Shown piece by piece: positions 5,001 through 28,823 of a stretch of 44,276 bases of DNA; within the stretch, counting starts at the first letter, position 1; every line of letters starts with the position of its first letter. The stretch is taken from assembly GCA_947311475.1 (NCBI GenBank), contig CAMZLK010000071.1:1-44276 (forward strand), written 5' to 3'. Position numbers and translations under genes: made by a program. This stretch comes from an uncultured Desulfocapsa sp. Its GTDB lineage: Bacteria > Desulfobacterota > Desulfobulbia > Desulfobulbales > Desulfocapsaceae. A model generated the notes under the pieces. It was not told where the DNA came from and did no database searches. It saw only the letters and a list, made by a program, of their open reading frames with translations.

Positions 5001-6200
5001 CAGAGCCTTTTGATAAAGGGTTTCCACATGGACTTTGACTTCCGGCTTGAGGCTGGAATTGAGCCAATATTGAGAAAGTGCAGTGAAAAGGATGGTGAGG
5101 CTGTGAGGCTCATCATCCTTGTGAAAACTCATCTCTTCGCCAGGGAGAGCAGTGCTGTTTCTTATTTGGAGAAAGGTGGCAAATACCTGATAGGCTTTTT
5201 CCTCAACACTGTCTTTGAAGAGTGATTGAGTGATACTGATCTGGTGGGCTACTGTTTGATCCTGGTCAGTCTGATTGTTTTGCAGAGTTGCCAGTGCATG
5301 GAAGAGCCCTGTGGAACCAAAAAATGCGACTTTGTCGCTACCTGTCAGTTCGCGTAAAAAATTGAGATCAGCGTCAAAGAGCTCATCGGTACTGTTTGCC
5401 TGGCCTGTAAGAAATGCAAGTGTTCCTGCGGCTCCTGTTCCAACAAAACTTTCGCTGTTCTCTTCAAGAAGCTGTCGGGCCTTTTCCAGACTTCCTCTGA
5501 AGATATATTGGGTAAAAAGAATACGCAGAAAGGGGAGCCTTTCGTCCTGGCTGAGACCTTCCAGGCCTGTCCCGTCCGTTAAGTAGATAAGTATTTCCGG
5601 GTAACTGCTGAGGCTTGCAAGTTCATAGCGGAAGATGCTGTCGAGGAGGAAGAATTGAAATGAAGGCGCCAGGCTGCCAAACCATATGGGGTCAAAAGGT
5701 GAAGTCGTTACCTGTACAGTGGGTGGCAGGGGAGAGAGAATATCGCGGCACTGTCCTGAAAGGAATTCGAGGGCATCATCAATAAGATCGAAATCCTGGG
5801 TGTAAATGCCGATACGCATTTCGCGCATGGCACGCCAGCAACGAGTTGTCCATTTACCGTAATAATAAGAAACGGGAGCTTCTTTACGGATAACTTTTGC
5901 GTAGGTTGTGAAATTGTTTTCGGCGATTGCAATACGGCTTAGTTTCTCAACAAGGCCAGGCACACATTGTCGTTCTTCAGTGAGAAGGCCCATTTCCTGA
6001 AACTTTGAGAAGTAGTGATTCAGGTTAGCTGCAGTGGGACGATTCCCACGAGGACTTTTGATGTCGAGTTTCCGCAGACAGTTAACGATCTGTGTAGTGT
6101 GGGCCGGTTCGTAGACAATGGACTGAAATTGGAGAAGTGCCTGTTCAAAAGGGCTGAGTTTGTCGTACTGCTGGAGTAATTCGTGGATGGGGTCTGGCAT
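2031..6200 (-). CDS. SNF2/SWI2-family DEAD/DEAH-box helicase
   Basis: Helicase motifs in the C-terminal half: LADDMGLGKTIQALA, ILDEAQAIKN, TGTPVENHLGELWNLFHFINPG, LDGATSSPKRKQEVDRFQ, DPWWNPAVEDQASDRAHRIGQTRPV. Confidence 0.95.
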   Translation of the reverse strand: MPDPIHELLQQYDKLSPFEQALLQFQSIVYEPAHTTQIVNCLRKLDIKSPRGNRPTAANLNHYFSKFQEMGLLTEERQCVPGLVEKLSRIAIAENNFTTYAKVIRKEAPVSYYYGKWTTRCWRAMREMRIGIYTQDFDLIDDALEFLSGQCRDILSPLPPTVQVTTSPFDPIWFGSLAPSFQFFLLDSIFRYELASLSSYPEILIYLTDGTGLEGLSQDERLPFLRILFTQYIFRGSLEKARQLLEENSESFVGTGAAGTLAFLTGQANSTDELFDADLNFLRELTGSDKVAFFGSTGLFHALATLQNNQTDQDQTVAHQISITQSLFKDSVEEKAYQVFATFLQIRNSTALPGEEMSFHKDDEPHSLTILFTALSQYWLNSSLKPEVKVHVETLYQKALQNDFHFFSLNLAAILAGTGHDKAQYDEVVKRLCEETGLNPLINILQSEEPWKRNLKALIQITASPQDSNGRLSERLIWMIDYKNGTMHISPKEQKRNQAGNWSKGRPISLSRLYSGKLTYLTVQDRKIAACIQKQINPETHGISYHFDMDKTLLAMTNHPLLFFSQYPGTPVEFVSGEPELLVEERGTQLHIRFAQEVTEDNITIFQETPTRYKIIEINDNHRRIAQITGRNGLVVPIDASEQVLTAIGNISSFMTVHSAIAADIHPDSHGNIEQVEADPTIYMHLLPYGTGFRLEMFVKPFFNGGHYLKPGQGVENIIAEVRGKRLQTKRNLSLEEHMARGVEESCPILDLAIDLEQENDREWHLQDPDDCLQALQELQAIQDQVVIEWPEGEKLNITHQASLKNLNLKVRTNQQNWFALSGELRLDQDTVIDLRELLAKTKHAHGNFIQIREGQFLALTQEFKKKLEEINLFSEGTGNEDGELLIHHLAAIPLEKLVEEAKAQVDSGWTEQIKRIHESQSFKPELPSTLRAELRDYQIEGYNWLSRLAHWGVGGCLADDMGLGKTIQALAAILSSANDGPSLVVAPTSVSNNWMSEANRFTPTLNIKTLVGKNRAQTISELGKFDLLITTYTLLQQENELLSAVHWQTIILDEAQAIKNAATKRSKAAMAMNAKFKLITTGTPVENHLGELWNLFHFINPGLLGTLNRFNERFAVPIERYHNRDARLKLKKLIRPFILRRIKSQVLEELPPRTEVTLEVEMSDEEKLFYEALRQNALEVLENNRVKKSRHLQILTEIMKLRQACCNPKLITPDTSIGSSKLNVFASVVDDLLEGGHKALIFSQFIGHLSILRAHLDEKGINYRYLDGATSSPKRKQEVDRFQSGEGDLFLISLKAGGLGLNLTAADYVIHMDPWWNPAVEDQASDRAHRIGQTRPVTIYRLVCKNTIEEKIVQLHQEKRDLAGSLLEGSDMSAKMTSEDLLDLIRRK

Positions 6201-6433
6201 CTTATTTTTGGTGTAAAACAGTTTTATTTAGCCTAACCCTCAAGAGAGATAAACCATGGACCTGCGCTATAAGCAAGCTACAATAAACAATCTATCATAT
6301 CATGTATGGATGATAAACAAAAGAATATCCTGAGTTGAATTGTCCTTTTGGAGGTGTGGGCTGGTTTTATAAGGAAACAGGATAACTGTTCAGTGCTTAT
6401 AATGAGTTGAAAGACCTGTGAAAAACTTTATAT

Positions 6434-20908: not shown

Positions 20909-21289
20909 ATGCAATCACGACTTACAAGACGTAGATTCATACAAAAAACCATTAGTGTTGGCAGCGCTGTCAGTGTGGCCGGGGTTTTTGTTATTCCCGA
21001 TCTCCGATCTTTTTATTCTGATAATGTTACTTGTAGTAATTGTGGTTTACAGGAACAACGATCTGGTTCTGCATTTTTGCAGAATCTATTACACAAACGT
21101 TTTTGCCCGCATTGTGGAATTAACACATATACCTCGTCCTTTCCATCAGATCAAAAATGTGCCTGCAGTGGCACGTTACAAAATACCGAAAAATTCAAAA
21201 ACCCAATGTGTTGTCAGGTGCCATTTCCTGCTCATGGGTTGGCGAACAGTAGTAAACCCGTATTACGTATGGCTGATCTTCAATTTTGA
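20909..21289 (+). CDS. Small Tat-signal, cysteine-rich exported protein (unknown)
   Basis: Tat motif TRRRFIQKTISVGSAVSVAGVFVIP, then CSNCG, CPHCG, CACSG and MCC motifs; purine-rich RBS-like sequence upstream. Confidence 0.72.
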   Translation: MQSRLTRRRFIQKTISVGSAVSVAGVFVIPDLRSFYSDNVTCSNCGLQEQRSGSAFLQNLLHKRFCPHCGINTYTSSFPSDQKCACSGTLQNTEKFKNPMCCQVPFPAHGLANSSKPVLRMADLQF

Positions 21290-21407
21290 TACCGGGGCGG
21301 ATTTTTTAGATATCAGTATGGTGCTACACCATACATGCCGAATCTTGCTTTGCACGCCGGATGGCTGGCCATCCGGCGCGATAACAGTATAAAATGCCCC
21401 GGTATCA
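21287..21407 (+). ncRNA. Candidate retron-type ncRNA (msr-msd-like) or structured leader of the RT gene
   Basis: Perfect 12-bp outer stem TGATACCGGGGC (21287-21298)/GCCCCGGTATCA (21396-21407), extendable by ATTTT/AAAAT past a 2-nt bulge. Encloses GTATGGTG-cta-CACCATAC (21316-21334) and CGCCGGATGG-ctgg-CCATCCGGCG (21355-21378). Confidence 0.6.
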
Positions 21408-22662
21408 TTTTCTTTGCGTTACAAAAAACGAAACGACCCTAAAAACAATGACCGGATGCACTGAACATTCCATTTTTCTCAAAAATCTTGTGGAGGTCAA
21501 TCAGCGAGCTGATATCGACCCCGAAGTTCTGGATCTTATAGAATCCTATGCCAGCCTGCGGTTGGCACATAATCGAGAAGTGGATTTTTACAATTCTGCC
21601 CGCCCTGTATCTGAAAAAGATACAGACCTACAGACATTCCTTAAGAAAAATAAAGATCTCGACAAGCGTACAAAAAATTTCCTTATCGCCTACTATCAGG
21701 AGGTGAGAGATCGTCGTTTTTGCTGCATATTCAGCTCTGACCATTTAGCACATTTGCTACAGACGCCCCTTCCGCATCTTCACGCCTTAACAAGGGGCAG
21801 CCGTAATTATCATGTCTTCACCATCAAAAAATCAAGTGGAGCAGATCGGAAAATTCAGGCACCACATAAACAGTTAAAAACAGTTCAACGGAAAATTCTC
21901 AATACAATCCTTCACCGTGTACCATTAAACAAATACGCGGAAGGCTTTCGAAAAAAACGTTCCATCCTCACTAATGCCATGCATCATGTGAATAAGAAAG
22001 TAATCGTTAAACTGGATATTAAAGACTTTTTCCCCGCCATTGATTCCAATCGTGTGTTTGGTATGTATCTTCAGTTGGGCTATCCCCGTCGGGTGGCACA
22101 ATTGTTGACTAATCTGTCAACGGTTCAAAAAAGGCTACCAACCGGAGCACCCACCAGCCCGGCTATAGCAAATATTATCAGCAGAAGACTTGATAAGCGT
22201 TTTGTTAATCTGGGGGTAAAAACTGATTTCACCTACTCCCGTTACGCAGACGATATCACCATCTCCTGTGATACCGATAATATCCTTAAAATGATTCCCT
22301 TTTTTAAGGAGATAATTCGGGATGAAGGGTTTGGGGTAAACGAAGGGAAGCTACGTATACTCCGAAGTGGCAATCGTCAATCTGTGACAGGGGTGGTTGT
22401 GAATGAGAAACCAAATGTTACACGGCGGGAAATAAAAAAATTAAGAGCCGTATTGCATAACAGTAAACATGGGAACTTGTATAAACAGGCCGGGATATGG
22501 GCCATGAGAGAAAAGGGTCTGAGAAGTTACAGCCCTTATTCAGTTGTGGATTTTTATCAATCCCTGCTGGCAAAGATTCATTTTGTCAGGATGATTAATG
22601 AAAAGGCGGGAAATACTTTGCTCTCTGACTTTTACAGAATTCCCTGGCCTGTTATTGCATGA
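21394..22662 (+). CDS. Retron-like reverse transcriptase (alternative start at 21448)
   Basis: Retron-type motifs: ILTNAMHHVNKK (NAxxH), VIVKLDIKDFFPAID, LPTGAPTSPAIANI, FTYSRYADDITIS (YADD), SVTGVVVNEKPNVTRREIKKLRA (VTG). About 110-aa N-terminal extension. Confidence 0.92.
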   Translation: MPRYHFLCVTKNETTLKTMTGCTEHSIFLKNLVEVNQRADIDPEVLDLIESYASLRLAHNREVDFYNSARPVSEKDTDLQTFLKKNKDLDKRTKNFLIAYYQEVRDRRFCCIFSSDHLAHLLQTPLPHLHALTRGSRNYHVFTIKKSSGADRKIQAPHKQLKTVQRKILNTILHRVPLNKYAEGFRKKRSILTNAMHHVNKKVIVKLDIKDFFPAIDSNRVFGMYLQLGYPRRVAQLLTNLSTVQKRLPTGAPTSPAIANIISRRLDKRFVNLGVKTDFTYSRYADDITISCDTDNILKMIPFFKEIIRDEGFGVNEGKLRILRSGNRQSVTGVVVNEKPNVTRREIKKLRAVLHNSKHGNLYKQAGIWAMREKGLRSYSPYSVVDFYQSLLAKIHFVRMINEKAGNTLLSDFYRIPWPVIA

Positions 22663-23465
22663 AGTGTTTTTTGTTTCGACGGTTTGTACCACTGCTGCTT
22701 GTTTCCGTACTTTTTCTGCTTACTGGTAAAGATGGGCAGGCCAAAACAGGTATTGTTACAGCATTGGACAGTACTCTGGAACAGCTCAAAAAGAAGACCG
22801 AAATTACCGGTTATTCAACCATAGGAGGGCGTGAATTCTACACAGGAAAATTGGGAGAGACAGAAATTATCCTGGTACGTTCTCCCATGGGCAAAGTAAA
22901 TAATGCCATTACCACGCAACTCCTTATTTCAACGTATGCACCTGCAAATGTGCTTTCCATATCTCCGGCCGGTGCCATCAGACAGAATTTAAGAAAGGGA
23001 GATGTCATTTTGGCAACAGAGGTATATCAACATGATTTTGGCACATGGAAACCATACGGATTTATATGGAGTAAAACGCCAGCATATATTCAATCCCTGT
23101 CCACAGATTACAATCGGTTTCCAAAGATTTCATTACAGCAGGTTACTGGACAGGATAAAACAGAAAAATCAAAAGATGTTAATACAGTAGTGAGGGGTGT
23201 TCTTGTCTCAGGAGATCAATTTATAGCTTCATCCAAAAAGCGTGACTGGCTTCATAAGAAATTTAACGCCACAGCAGTTGATATGGGTGGTGCCGCTATT
23301 GTTCAGACTTGCTACGTCAACAGAACTCCCGTCCACCTGATACGGGTGATAACCGATGAGGCAAATCTGGATGCCAGGACAGCATTCGCAGATTCTATGC
23401 CGTCTTACAACACGACAATCGATCTGACCGCATTTATTGTAAATATCCTCACCAAAAACTTATAA
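22659..23465 (+). CDS. Exported MTA/SAH nucleosidase-like (PNP_UDP family) protein
   Basis: Signal peptide MKCFLFRRFVPLLLVSVLFLLTGKDGQA; GIVTAL, EIILVRSPMGKVNNAITTQLLI, SISPAGAIRQNLRKGDVILATEVYQHD, GVLVSGDQFIAS, AVDMGGAAIVQTCYVNRTPVHLIRVITDEAN. ATGA overlap with the RT stop. Confidence 0.87.
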   Translation: MKCFLFRRFVPLLLVSVLFLLTGKDGQAKTGIVTALDSTLEQLKKKTEITGYSTIGGREFYTGKLGETEIILVRSPMGKVNNAITTQLLISTYAPANVLSISPAGAIRQNLRKGDVILATEVYQHDFGTWKPYGFIWSKTPAYIQSLSTDYNRFPKISLQQVTGQDKTEKSKDVNTVVRGVLVSGDQFIASSKKRDWLHKKFNATAVDMGGAAIVQTCYVNRTPVHLIRVITDEANLDARTAFADSMPSYNTTIDLTAFIVNILTKNL

Positions 23466-23483: not shown

Positions 23484-26400
23484 ATGAAAAATGCCATCAT
23501 TTCAGTTTTATTGTCGTTGTGTCTTGCCATCTTCGCGGTTGGGAAGAGTATGGCGTATGATCAGTATTACCTGTTAAAACAGGGCCATGATGCCAGAAAC
23601 AGTGGTCATGCACAAGAGGCCATCCAGAATTATCAGGATTATATTAATTCCCATCCCTTTTCACAGAACCTGAAATCGTCAAAAGCTGCACTGCAGGGGG
23701 CACCCGGTACGCCAACAAACAGCAGCCAGTATTTATTGCGAAATTTGCTTATTGCATACAAAAACCTTTTGCGTGTGCTCCATGAAAATGGAAGGACGAA
23801 AGAAGTAAGAACCTGGTTAACAAACCTCAAATCCATTTATGACCCGGAAGGATTTGGCTCAAAGAATAGTTATAATCTTGCAGTAATTCTACAGGAAAAT
23901 AACTGCTTGGATGATTGTACTGCCTTATTGGAAAATATAATAACAAATCAAATTGAAGAGTATAGATCAGGCAACAACAAGGTCTTTCTGCGTGCAGCCA
24001 GTATGCTCATGAAGGTTTATGTTAAACATGGACAAATAGATCAGCAACGTATTCTTTGCAATAATCTGTTGCAGTGTCCAAGGTTGGAATTTGATAACAA
24101 TGATTCATACAGACTGGCAACTCTACTTCTTAAAGAGGCTCAGACCAGAGAAATAGGCAAACAGCTTTTAGGAGAAATTTCCAATCAGACAGGAGGTACG
24201 GCTACTGATGCTGCTTCAATTCTGAAGGCTAATATCTGTTTGATGAAATGTAAGTATGAGGAAAACGACAAAGAAGGTCTTGACTGTATTGCCAGTCAAT
24301 GCACATTGACCTTGAAAAATAACCTTTCCCCCAGTGCCCTCTATAAGCTGGGTGTTGCTTTTCTGAAATACGGAAAAAAGAATCAAGGAAAAGCGATTCT
24401 AGAAAGGATCAGTCAGGAATACACGAATAGCGTATGGTCCAGAAAAAGCCTGTTTCTACTTGGTCGAAATGCGTTAAGTGAAAAAGATTGGACCGCTGCG
24501 ATTGACCACTATTCAACGTACATCGATCGATATCCTGAACAGACATTTTTTTGTTTGAAGGCGTATTCCAACATTCTTGATGCTTACTGGTCCCGTGATG
24601 GTGACCTCGAACAGCAGCAACTGCAGATTGATAGTTTTGCCGATATTATAAACCAGACAGCAGACTATGAAACGCAACTGAATATGGCACGGGAATTGTC
24701 CTATAAGGGATTTGAAAAATTGGCTGATTCGACCTTTATCCTTGGCTACACCTTTGTACAAGGTGTAATCGCCAACAATAAAAACACCCTCCCTGCCATG
24801 CGGGCAAACTGGCAATTAACCAAATATGGGTTCGAGGTGGGAAGATTTGATATTGCCCGTGATAGTGGAGAAGATGTTCTTGATACCCATGGACAGATAT
24901 ACAATTTGTTAACAACTGCCAAAGAAAAAGAGAGAGCGGATCATTATCTCTCCCGCACTATTCTCTGGCTGGCAAAACTCTACGAAACCACGCGTGAAGA
25001 AGAAAAAGCAAAGAGAGTTCTCCAGCGCTTTGTCAGTGATTTCCCCCACGATACAGATAGCGATTATGCCACCTATCAACTTGGCCGACTTTATGAACAG
25101 GAAGGGCAGTTTCAAGATGCTGCTGAATCGTATAGACAAATAAAGAAAAAACAGTGGCGAAAAAAAGGCAGACAGGGCACTACAGAAGATGGATGCCATA
25201 TGAAAAGCTTATTATATTCTTTATTTTTCCTGATTGCCATCCTCTTTATTCCCGTAACTTCACCAGCGTGGGAGTGTGATGTTACTCTGGATGCACCTAA
25301 AACTATTAAAATTGATCAGGAAGTCATTTTGACAGCAGATGGAACTCCAACAGGTGGTTCTTATTCCTGGTCGCGAACAAAAAATCTCACTCCTGATGGA
25401 GCGACAGCAACGTTAATTGGTCATAAACCAAACTATTCCGAATACATTCAGGTTATTGCCTATTATAGAAGTCCGAAAGGAAAAAAGTGTAAAGATGTAA
25501 AATGGATATGGGTGTGCGCTTGTAATGTTACACGCCTTAACGGGCCTGCAACGGCTAAAGTAGGTCAAAAGGTAGCTCTGGCCGCTGAGGCTGAACCAAC
25601 AGGGGGAGCCTATACCTGGACAATAGTATCAGGTAGTGGTAGCCTGACACCCGACGACTCATCTGCAGAATTTATTGGTGATAAAGCCGGATCTGTTGAA
25701 ATAAAAGTTTCGTATGTACCACCGGATGGTGGAGAACCATGCACGAAAGATCATACAATTGAAGTTGAAGGTGAATGTGAGGTAACTTTAGATATAGCTG
25801 TGGCGTCACGACCAATATGCAGATCATTGGAGTTTCATGCAGAAGGAATACCCACTGGAGGCGATTTTTCATGGGAGGCCGGCAACGGAATTAGCGGATC
25901 AGGCAAGGTTGCCACGTACGACAGTACAACACCGGGAACTGATACCATAACGGTTAAATATACATCCCCGGATGGCACCACTTGTGACGCCAGTACCTCT
26001 ATTACTTCTTTTTCTTTGAACGATGATTTTGCTTCAAAAAAGAGTTGTTTTAATTCTGGCACTTCCTTACAATTGGCTGACTTTACGATTAGTACTACTC
26101 CTCCAGGATTTCACGATGAAGCGAGACTATCCCCATCACCAATTTCCACCAGTACTCCTACCGCTCAACAGGAAACTAGACAGGTCACGGCTTCCCTTTT
26201 GTGTCGACCGAGTACCAATGAAAAATATACTAACGTAGTGGTTGTAAACAAAGATGTGGAAATTGGTTCGAAAATAGAGATTGAAATACCCAATCTCCTT
26301 AAAGTGCCTCTGGAAAAGTTGGGATTGGCTGACAAGCTGGAGTTTAAACTACGGAATTCATACAAAAAAAATAAAGAATGTTGTGATGCTGGACCAGAAG

Positions 26401-26879
26401 ATGCGATAAGTGGTGAGACGTCAATAAAAGCTGAAGCAGCATTGAAAGACTTTACGCTTTATGGTGTTCCGTTACCCAAAGCAGTCAGGAAATATTTCAC
26501 CTTTAACGCCTTCCAGGCAGATTTAACCGGGAAAGGCAGTGTCTTGATTATAGGTGAGTCTGAAGCATGCAACAAAACTGATATGTGGAGTGGTGGAGGT
26601 AATGTTTCGGTGGAATTGGGGATAGGAAGTAAGGCCAAGGTAAAGGCACCATATTTTCTTGTTCAGGGGGAAGTGAAAGGTAAAACCGATGTTAAAGAAA
26701 GTTTGAGTGTAGACTCTTCTCAGATAACGGCTAATGGGCAGTGGGGCGGTGTGGTTGTTAAGGGTACTGTGAAAATCAGAGTGTACAAATTTATAATACA
26801 ACCATTTGGAATTAATCATCAGGTTATTGGAAGCGGCACGACACCTACGGTGACTATCGATCTGCCTGCTTTGCAATGA
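23484..26879 (+). CDS. ORF-track fusion: secreted TPR protein (to about 25203) plus secreted Ig-like repeat protein (from 25200); probably two genes joined by a 1-nt homopolymer shift
   Basis: N-terminal signal peptide and TPR-like repeats; a second signal peptide (MKSLLYSLFFLIAILFIPVTSPAW) at codon 573; then repeated TPTGGSYSW/EPTGGAYTW/IPTGGDFSW Ig-like units. Confidence 0.7.
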   Translation: MKNAIISVLLSLCLAIFAVGKSMAYDQYYLLKQGHDARNSGHAQEAIQNYQDYINSHPFSQNLKSSKAALQGAPGTPTNSSQYLLRNLLIAYKNLLRVLHENGRTKEVRTWLTNLKSIYDPEGFGSKNSYNLAVILQENNCLDDCTALLENIITNQIEEYRSGNNKVFLRAASMLMKVYVKHGQIDQQRILCNNLLQCPRLEFDNNDSYRLATLLLKEAQTREIGKQLLGEISNQTGGTATDAASILKANICLMKCKYEENDKEGLDCIASQCTLTLKNNLSPSALYKLGVAFLKYGKKNQGKAILERISQEYTNSVWSRKSLFLLGRNALSEKDWTAAIDHYSTYIDRYPEQTFFCLKAYSNILDAYWSRDGDLEQQQLQIDSFADIINQTADYETQLNMARELSYKGFEKLADSTFILGYTFVQGVIANNKNTLPAMRANWQLTKYGFEVGRFDIARDSGEDVLDTHGQIYNLLTTAKEKERADHYLSRTILWLAKLYETTREEEKAKRVLQRFVSDFPHDTDSDYATYQLGRLYEQEGQFQDAAESYRQIKKKQWRKKGRQGTTEDGCHMKSLLYSLFFLIAILFIPVTSPAWECDVTLDAPKTIKIDQEVILTADGTPTGGSYSWSRTKNLTPDGATATLIGHKPNYSEYIQVIAYYRSPKGKKCKDVKWIWVCACNVTRLNGPATAKVGQKVALAAEAEPTGGAYTWTIVSGSGSLTPDDSSAEFIGDKAGSVEIKVSYVPPDGGEPCTKDHTIEVEGECEVTLDIAVASRPICRSLEFHAEGIPTGGDFSWEAGNGISGSGKVATYDSTTPGTDTITVKYTSPDGTTCDASTSITSFSLNDDFASKKSCFNSGTSLQLADFTISTTPPGFHDEARLSPSPISTSTPTAQQETRQVTASLLCRPSTNEKYTNVVVVNKDVEIGSKIEIEIPNLLKVPLEKLGLADKLEFKLRNSYKKNKECCDAGPEDAISGETSIKAEAALKDFTLYGVPLPKAVRKYFTFNAFQADLTGKGSVLIIGESEACNKTDMWSGGGNVSVELGIGSKAKVKAPYFLVQGEVKGKTDVKESLSVDSSQITANGQWGGVVVKGTVKIRVYKFIIQPFGINHQVIGSGTTPTVTIDLPALQ

Positions 26880-26933: not shown

Positions 26934-28823
26934 ATGTACCAAAAGCAGCTGTCTTTCATGTTTTTCTTTCTCACCTTCAGTCTTGGTTTTATAGCTTCAG
27001 CTTACAGTGCAACAGTCTTCGGGGCCAATGATTTGACTGTAAACAAATGGCGTTATCACTTCTCCTATCATGCCTTTACTGTGGATGCAGTTGGAAAAGG
27101 AGAACTGATTGTTACCAAAAATACACCAGACAAGAAAGTCAGGGGCGGTTTTATAATTTATAACTCTCGAGTGATTCCGCTGAAAAAATTTCTCCGGGGA
27201 AGCCACGAAACACTGACCAGAAAAATCAAACTTCGTTCAAAAAACAGGGTTTTAGTTTTTCTCCGTGGTAAACCCGGTGCATCCATTTCGCTTGAAATCA
27301 CGGATAAAGGAGTACCTGATCTGCCGGAGGCACATTTATCTGTAGAACCAGAAAGTATACTACAAGGCGAATCCAGTAGCCTGACATGGTCAACATCCCA
27401 TGCGGATTCGGTTGTACTCGAACCTGAAATCGGCGCAGTAGATCCATCCGGCACCATCAGTGTCTCCCCCGATGAAACAACCATGTATATCCTGACAGCC
27501 AGGGGGGCAGGTGGTACTGTCACTGCACAGGCTGAGGTTAAAGTTACCCTGCCGGAGCCAACCGTCACTATCACGGCTGAGCCTGATACCATTGCTCCGG
27601 GCAACACGTCCACCCTTACCTGGGATTCGGAACATGCCGTTTCCTGTACCATTGAACCGGACATAGGTGCCGTGGCAGTTAGTGGTGCAGTCGATGTTGT
27701 TCCTGTTGAAACAACAACCTACACAATTACAGCGGTTGGCCCGGGCGGCGGTACTAGCCGCGCTCAGGTGTTGGTGCAATTATATCCAATTAAAATTCAG
27801 AGAATTGATAAGTCTCAAGCTCATTATACAACTCCAGAGAATACTATGGCTGCTTCAACTTCAGCTTTGCTGCAACATGATCTTGAATGGTTCCATGAAA
27901 CATTTACTGAAGAGGCTGTAGCCTTTGAAAAACAGCTTTATGCAGATGCCGGTATTGATCCAGCAAGTAGTTTCGATTTAACTGATGAAAACGATGAAGA
28001 ATATATCTTAGACAAAAAGCCATACAAAGACGGCTTACTTATTATTACAGAAAATAGATACAATGATATTGATGGTACTATTTTAACAGTTGCAGCCGTT
28101 CTTGTACTGGAAGACAATTTATGGAAGGCTACATTTAAATATGGTGGTGACGAAGAACTTAATCAATATATGGATATTCAATATACCGACTGCATTGCCA
28201 ACCACAATTTCACACCCAATTTCCTCGATGATTTTTGCTGGCACGACAACGACCTCACCAACTATAATGAAACAGCGGGTGTCCTTGATCAGCGTTACGA
28301 TGAAGATCTGACTGTTGCTGAACTTAATGGTATTAACAACGGTTTCAGCAGGGAACCTCTGAACGACATGCCACGAGAGCAGATTTCCATGGGCGGCTGG
28401 ATCAAGGCGGACAGCATGGATCATACTGCCCGGATTATGGAAATTGGCCGGGATCGCAGTGATTCGACCGCCATTGTCCTGGATTCCGGCAAGGGGTTGC
28501 GCTACTGGGTTCATGTCAACGGCAACCGGGTGGAAAGAACCGCTGCCATGGGTTATGATTTTCACGACAATCAATGGCATCATGTCTACCTGACCTACGA
28601 CGGCACCACTATGAAACTTTATGTGGACGCACAACTCAAGGATTCACACCCGCTATCCGGCGCCATTGACTCTGCCGCGGTTCTGAACATCGGTCAGCAC
28701 AATGGCGCCGTCTTTGGCGGCACATCAGACAGTTTTAAAGGAAGGCTGGACGATCTTCAGATTTACAACAAGCCCTTGACTGCCGAGGAGATTTTGATAA
28801 AATACGAGAATGGATCCAGCTGA
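26934..28823 (+). CDS. Secreted protein with two Ig-like repeats and a C-terminal LamG/concanavalin-like domain
   Basis: Signal peptide; repeats (HLSVEPESILQGESSSLTWSTSHADSVVLEPEIGAV; TVTITAEPDTIAPGNTSTLTWDSEHAVSCTIEPDIGAV); LamG-like ISMGGWIKADSMDHTARIMEIG...NQWHHVYLTYDGTTMKLYVDAQLKDSHPLSG...GRLDDLQIYNKPLTAEEI. Confidence 0.85.
   Translation: MYQKQLSFMFFFLTFSLGFIASAYSATVFGANDLTVNKWRYHFSYHAFTVDAVGKGELIVTKNTPDKKVRGGFIIYNSRVIPLKKFLRGSHETLTRKIKLRSKNRVLVFLRGKPGASISLEITDKGVPDLPEAHLSVEPESILQGESSSLTWSTSHADSVVLEPEIGAVDPSGTISVSPDETTMYILTARGAGGTVTAQAEVKVTLPEPTVTITAEPDTIAPGNTSTLTWDSEHAVSCTIEPDIGAVAVSGAVDVVPVETTTYTITAVGPGGGTSRAQVLVQLYPIKIQRIDKSQAHYTTPENTMAASTSALLQHDLEWFHETFTEEAVAFEKQLYADAGIDPASSFDLTDENDEEYILDKKPYKDGLLIITENRYNDIDGTILTVAAVLVLEDNLWKATFKYGGDEELNQYMDIQYTDCIANHNFTPNFLDDFCWHDNDLTNYNETAGVLDQRYDEDLTVAELNGINNGFSREPLNDMPREQISMGGWIKADSMDHTARIMEIGRDRSDSTAIVLDSGKGLRYWVHVNGNRVERTAAMGYDFHDNQWHHVYLTYDGTTMKLYVDAQLKDSHPLSGAIDSAAVLNIGQHNGAVFGGTSDSFKGRLDDLQIYNKPLTAEEILIKYENGSS

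Follow-up and report, generated by a model that had tools for sequence, protein, structure and literature searches.

Which element stands just upstream of the reverse transcriptase (RT) gene in contig CAMZLK010000071.1 of an uncultured Desulfocapsa sp., and what could it be for? The whole stretch analysed here, called the window, comprises 44,276 nt, and the original prediction had read its positions 21287-21407 as a candidate msr-msd noncoding RNA (ncRNA) of a retron. In this study, we believe that this element is very probably such an RNA, of a retron type not described in the libraries searched, the known types being judged through PADLOC 2023, NCBIfam 2026 and open papers. That the locus as a whole is a retron is held with great confidence. 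What is new here is a conserved operon with partners that look exported and an msd stem that is hypervariable yet palindromic.

Fold, covariation and predicted priming layout of the RNA

The RNA folded as had been claimed, with the same ends, outer stem, and 8-bp and 10-bp hairpins. Its minimum free energy was -56.8 kcal/mol, compared with a mean of -33.7 kcal/mol for shuffled sequences (z -6.3), and none of 200 shuffles reached it. The outer a1/a2 stem comprises 13 bp (21287-21299 with 21395-21407) when the G-U pair 21299/21395 is included. Covariation of the stems in homologues, whose absence the original prediction had named as a refutation, was found in all three helices. Fifteen further loci carry the same RNA before a homologous RT, so that 16 RNA-bearing loci were available, two of them in one genome (L and G numbers denote our loci and genomes; here G792). 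In the 16-sequence alignment, which was fitted to the covariance model, a procedure that favours the structure, 94.9% of the cells were paired, and both sides had changed in 17 of 28 pairs. The covariation score was 0.466, against at most 0.111 when the partner was slid by 1-3 columns (0/500 shuffles). When eight sequences were registered by hand, the result was the same, with 95/96, 64/64 and 69/69 cells paired. The RNA had been called shorter than expected; its 121 nt are confirmed, but such a length is normal in this family, which ranges from 121 to 133 nt. The ncRNA was single-copy in a search of the window's genome, and the Rfam covariance models, msr included, gave no match to the leader up to E = 5. 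A U-run lies directly 3' of a2 in the window (21408-21416) and in many homologues, and the helix could also be a terminator that sets the 3' end of the RNA.

The priming layout was compared with that of Retron-Eco1 (E. coli B REL606). In each of the 16 RNAs, UUAG closes the a1 side, and the a2 side opposite reads GUA in 16/16 and GUAA in 15/16. The base after UAG is not always C among the 16 loci, and small mismatches occur in the extension that joins these motifs to the main stem. At the equivalent places, Retron-Eco1 carries CCCUUAG and GUAAGGG; it shares the register GAC/GUAAGGG, and its priming G lies in UAGC, directly after a1 (PMC11754653). Because the UUAG/GUA layout is like that of Eco1, G21309 is the predicted branch point and 21386 the predicted first templating base. 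The 3' end of the multicopy single-stranded DNA (msDNA) probably falls within the linker at 21335-21354. As had been noticed, a1 begins on the TGA stop of the upstream open reading frame (ORF) 20909-21289. In Retron-Eco1, the effector stop TAG is the same UAG that holds the priming G, inside a1, so a retron RNA that meets the upstream stop codon in this way has a precedent. Two divergent Retron-Eco1 alleles (L120 and L121) both retain this effector-stop/UAG motif.

The downstream border is probably different. The 3' stem strand had been assigned to RT codons 1-5, which depends on the ATG at 21394, where the longest ORF of the window opens. The RT homologues (43-53% identity) align from ATG 21448. 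No ATG was present within a2 among the homologues read, and the frame 5' of the RT start is short or closed in most of them. Judging from these alignments, the RT most likely starts at ATG 21448, ATG 21394 would be a chance extension of the frame, and a2 would belong to the leader, some 40 nt before the RT. The proposed base-exact fit between the two ORFs is kept at the upstream stop and probably lost at the RT start.

Table 1. Coordinates of the RNA parts and the operon genes in the window
Feature	Position	Strand	Remarks
Probable retron ncRNA (msr-msd)	21287..21407	+	121 nt; fold z -6.3 and covariation over 16 homologous loci
a1 strand, TGATACCGGGGC	21287..21298	+	12 Watson-Crick pairs with 21396-21407; double changes in 7/12 pairs (16 loci)
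UUAG motif	21306..21309	+	inner end of a1 side, 16/16 loci; predicted branching (priming) G = 21309
msr hairpin, GTATGGTG-CTA-CACCATAC	21316..21334	+	8 bp, loop CTA; 99.2% of cells paired, double changes in 3 pairs
Single-stranded linker, 3' end CTTGCTTTGCA	21335..21354	+	CTTGCTWCGCA-type block conserved
msd hairpin	21355..21378	+	10 bp, loop CTGG; stem hypervariable, loop CT conserved; double changes in 7/8 counted pairs
GUAUAAAAU	21387..21395	+	pairs with the U-run 5' of UUAG; predicted complementary DNA start opposite 21386
a2 strand, GCCCCGGTATCA	21396..21407	+	fold and covariation
Cys-rich protein with Tat-type signal (LTRRRFIQK...), accessory ORF	20909..21289	+	126 aa; homologues directly upstream of the ncRNA
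Retron RT	21448..22662	+	404 aa; RVT_1 6e-22; PADLOC RT_XIII 4e-94, RT_III-A 5e-92; Ec86 RT (PDB) 1.8e-41
Putative exported methylthioadenosine/S-adenosylhomocysteine (MTA/SAH)-nucleosidase-like protein	22659..23465	+	268 aa; PNP_UDP_1 2.3e-37; 4-nt overlap with RT stop
Putative exported TPR and exported Ig/PKD-like protein, one ORF	23484..26879	+	TPR_6 1.1e-18
Putative exported protein with 'QAxYxTPENT'-like segment common to the family and C-terminal laminin-G-like domain	26934..28823	+	Laminin_G_3 7.6e-26

The RT itself carries the motifs NAMHH (NAxxH, region X), YADD and VTG (region Y). NAxxH is retained in the members read, with the exception of L041 (NSRRH). The Ec86 RT was the best PDB match of the window RT (E = 1.8e-41) and is the nearest among solved structures, and the top PADLOC profiles, RT_XIII and RT_III-A, matched all ten members scanned (best 4.5e-105 and 3.1e-105, respectively). 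The locus combines retron RT motifs, a structured ncRNA enclosed in a1/a2 repeats, and a G after a1 in a UAG context. We believe that the a1/a2 layout of a retron msr-msd, originally proposed from resemblance, is borne out by the covariation, the Ec86-like RT and the UUAG...GUA priming layout.

Distribution and partner genes

Matches of the covariance model (E 1e-14 to 1e-32) were found only beside this RT. Within the window's class, the RNA was present in 3 of 261 genomes, and 3/3 of these had the RT; all seven RT homologues found later carried the RNA. The RT homologues span the window's class, the rest of its phylum, and the class groups of G618 and G683. The RNA directly precedes the RT in these loci, but in L042 about 300 nt lie between them, and within this gap (5933-6234, oriented), near 5996, part of the msd stem sequence recurs as ACCGACCGCGTCGC. 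Genome G792 holds two module copies (L079 and L081) with different msd hairpins, and the RT of L081 is apparently frameshifted near its N-terminus. In L041 (7000-8495), the DNA upstream of the RT contains a different inverted repeat (about 15 bp), which, having no UUAG/GUA, was rejected as a retron RNA. Nearly identical modules occur in unrelated flanks, and the distribution is rare and patchy; the module appears to have moved horizontally, a pattern typical of defence systems. A search of IMG/VR with the RT gave no relatives. Scanning IMG/VR for a pattern of linker and loop yielded 38 matches, none of them significant with the covariance model (best E 0.41), and a plasmid search returned only distant retron RTs of less than 40% identity.

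The gene order is the Cys-rich protein with a twin-arginine translocation (Tat) signal, the ncRNA, the RT, an MTA/SAH nucleosidase (MTAN)-like protein, a TPR protein, an Ig/PKD-like protein and a further protein with the 'PENT' segment. This conserved operon matches no retron type in PADLOC, NCBIfam or Rfam. A Cys-rich homologue stands upstream in every locus whose upstream DNA is covered, except L039, where the gene has decayed and only its last codons are left. The invariant residues of the protein are R7, R8, F10, C42, C45, C66, C69 and C101, and its AlphaFold model was uninformative (predicted local distance difference test score 46). The nucleosidase-like gene was found in exactly the 4 of 261 class genomes that have a close RT. 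The TPR and Ig-like genes are separate ORFs in L033, L034, L041, L077 and L080, and the fused ORF of the window (23484-26879) contains an internal signal-like peptide, MKSLLYSLFFLIAILFIPVTSPAW, near 25200. Shorter homologues of the last protein (26934..28823) occupy the same place in L033, L034, L041, L075, L077, L078 and L080. The downstream proteins checked begin with a positively charged N-terminus and a hydrophobic stretch typical of signal peptides, as judged by a simple hydropathy check rather than a trained predictor.

The MTAN-like protein shares with MTAN the fold family and the pocket segments, and its conserved Asp aligns with the general-acid position. It differs from MTAN in that Glu positions 12 and 174 are replaced by T and G/A/S, and in having an RT as companion and an N-terminal signal-like segment, which was present in all homologues checked.

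The hypervariable msd stem

The 23-nt msd hairpin was compared among five loci (L032, L033, L034, L075 and L076). The hairpins differ at 5-14 positions, the RNA outside the hairpin at 0-2 of about 105, and the RT at 27-63 of 1206 nt (2-5%); the fourfold sites of the RT have diverged by 3-6% among L032, L033 and L034. All of these stems still pair, with one internal mismatch in L032, and the length is constant and the loop CT is retained. The changes involve all bases, not adenines alone. Between the two copies of G792, the hairpin differs at 11/23 positions and the frame at 2/102, and the RTs have diverged by 11%. Metagenome-assembled or draft genomes supplied most of the loci, and single bases in them may be wrong; five distinct stems, all palindromic, are not assembly noise. 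Neither the window hairpin nor that of L034 has an exact match in IMG/VR, and in the window's own genome a search allowing up to 3 mismatches found no further copy of the window hairpin, so these searches do not support its capture from a phage or from another genomic site.

Two readings of this variability were weighed, and both are doubtful. If pairing alone is needed, the stem could drift neutrally, helped by palindrome-driven template switching. The compensated step-wise changes between L034 and L075 agree with this, and in Retron-Eco1 substitutions in the msd (P4) stem are tolerated (PMC11754653). However, the stem has diverged by about 50% and the RT fourfold sites by 3-6%, which is beyond neutral drift; at 5% per site, the binomial tail for at least 11 of 23 changes is 4e-9, a figure computed as if the two arms varied independently, although they do not. 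Drift also fits poorly with L048 and L049, a case contrary to the general trend, whose hairpins are identical despite an RT divergence of 18.6%, and with two Retron-Eco1 alleles, which show no excess of changes in the RNA (ncRNA 44/160 versus RT 318/868). The other reading, equally tentative, is that the msDNA hairpin serves as a switchable recognition element, acting with the exported proteins, its stem being diversified fastest in the locus while pairing, length and loop are retained. The diversification might proceed by RT-templated rewriting, allele exchange or strong diversifying selection, a set of routes that we likewise offer as speculation.

A second segment of the module also differs between close relatives. 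The Ig-like proteins of L033 and L034 are 81-95% identical over most of their length and 53% identical over the last 73 aligned residues, and this C-terminus may be a second switching segment. At the DNA level, the Ig-like C-terminus and the start of the next gene (L033, 6200-7200) diverge strongly from L034, the modules being otherwise about 97% identical.

Mechanism, rivals and comparison with known systems

We propose that the RT would bind the folded RNA, prime from the 2'-OH of G21309, and copy from about 21386 back through the hairpin at 21355-21378. The predicted product is a short msDNA of about 40-52 nt with one DNA hairpin, and a retron of this kind is the mechanism best supported by the sequences. 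With less certainty, the RT-msDNA complex may control the partner proteins, as retrons hold an effector and release it on phage attack, and the effector arm may be the nucleosidase-like protein or an envelope assembly. Some observations weigh against such a retron. Locus L041 (G191) has the RT, nucleosidase, TPR and Ig genes without a recognisable ncRNA or small upstream ORF. With the two MTAN Glu residues missing, the nucleosidase-like activity is uncertain. For a cytoplasmic msDNA that controls exported proteins, no precedent was found in the papers searched.

The structure might instead be a leader regulator of the RT operon, an attenuator or long-loop terminator, rather than an RT template, and we consider this very improbable. 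Its GC-rich a1/a2 helix followed by the U-run could end transcription, with at least 5 T directly after a2 in L032, L033, L034, L039, L049 and L077, and translation of the upstream ORF could affect folding, since its stop lies in a1. A terminator, however, has no need of the CTTGCT linker and the pair of inner hairpins, all of which are conserved, nor of the Eco1-type priming register, kept in 16/16; moreover, no copy of the RNA was found without a retron-class RT, and a terminator scan made no call. The two roles are not mutually exclusive. A more serious rival, possible although we do not favour it, keeps the retron without phage defence: its RT-DNA would serve an envelope function, for example the regulation, assembly or export of the TPR/Ig proteins. 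Export signals favour this, or an envelope-directed effector arm, as the partner genes checked have signal-like N-termini and the upstream protein a Tat-type signal, and no neighbour matches a known defence effector at a strong score. On the other side stand the rare, patchy and mobile distribution, which is defence-like, and the N-glycosidase-type partner, this being known effector chemistry; NDT-like retron effectors have been listed (PMC12548924). For these reasons we lean, by a little, towards a role in defence.

Returning to the one-hairpin msDNA retron, this locus adds a retron type backed by covariation rather than resemblance, its RNA being compact and its msDNA predicted to have a single hairpin. 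Two questions follow: how RT-DNA inside the cell could act together with partner proteins that all bear export signals, and why the msd stem changes fast yet stays palindromic. If the stem were a recognition element, retrons would possess an adaptable part, and the papers searched report none. An msd that is short and has a naturally tolerant stem would likewise be of practical interest for the production of single-stranded DNA in cells.

Among known systems, the PADLOC type XIII and III-A profiles score highest with this RT. The defining partners of type III are a phosphoribosyltransferase and a DNA-binding protein (PMC12548924), whereas here phosphoribosyltransferase and DNA-binding (winged-helix/helix-turn-helix) partners are absent among the neighbours. 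Type XIII has the best RT profile, yet no PADLOC retron accessory model matches the neighbours, and a literature search for type XIII partners and exported retron effectors found nothing among the papers covered. Diversity-generating retroelements likewise have an RT beside a locus with one fast-changing segment, but here the RT is of retron class and what changes is a palindrome within the RNA itself. This class was rejected: the RT scores as a retron, the changes go beyond adenines, and no TR/VR pair was noticed, with no scan aimed at one. Retron-Eco1 shares the order of accessory ORF, msr-msd and RT, the accessory stop in a1, the a1 side ending in UUA/G and the a2 side starting with GUAA. 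It differs from the present retron in several respects: here, a1/a2 has 12-13 bp plus an A/U-rich extension, the RNA has 121-133 nt instead of 169 and one msr hairpin, the msd is one short hairpin with a hypervariable stem, and the partner genes include no effector like nucleoside deoxyribosyltransferase (NDT).
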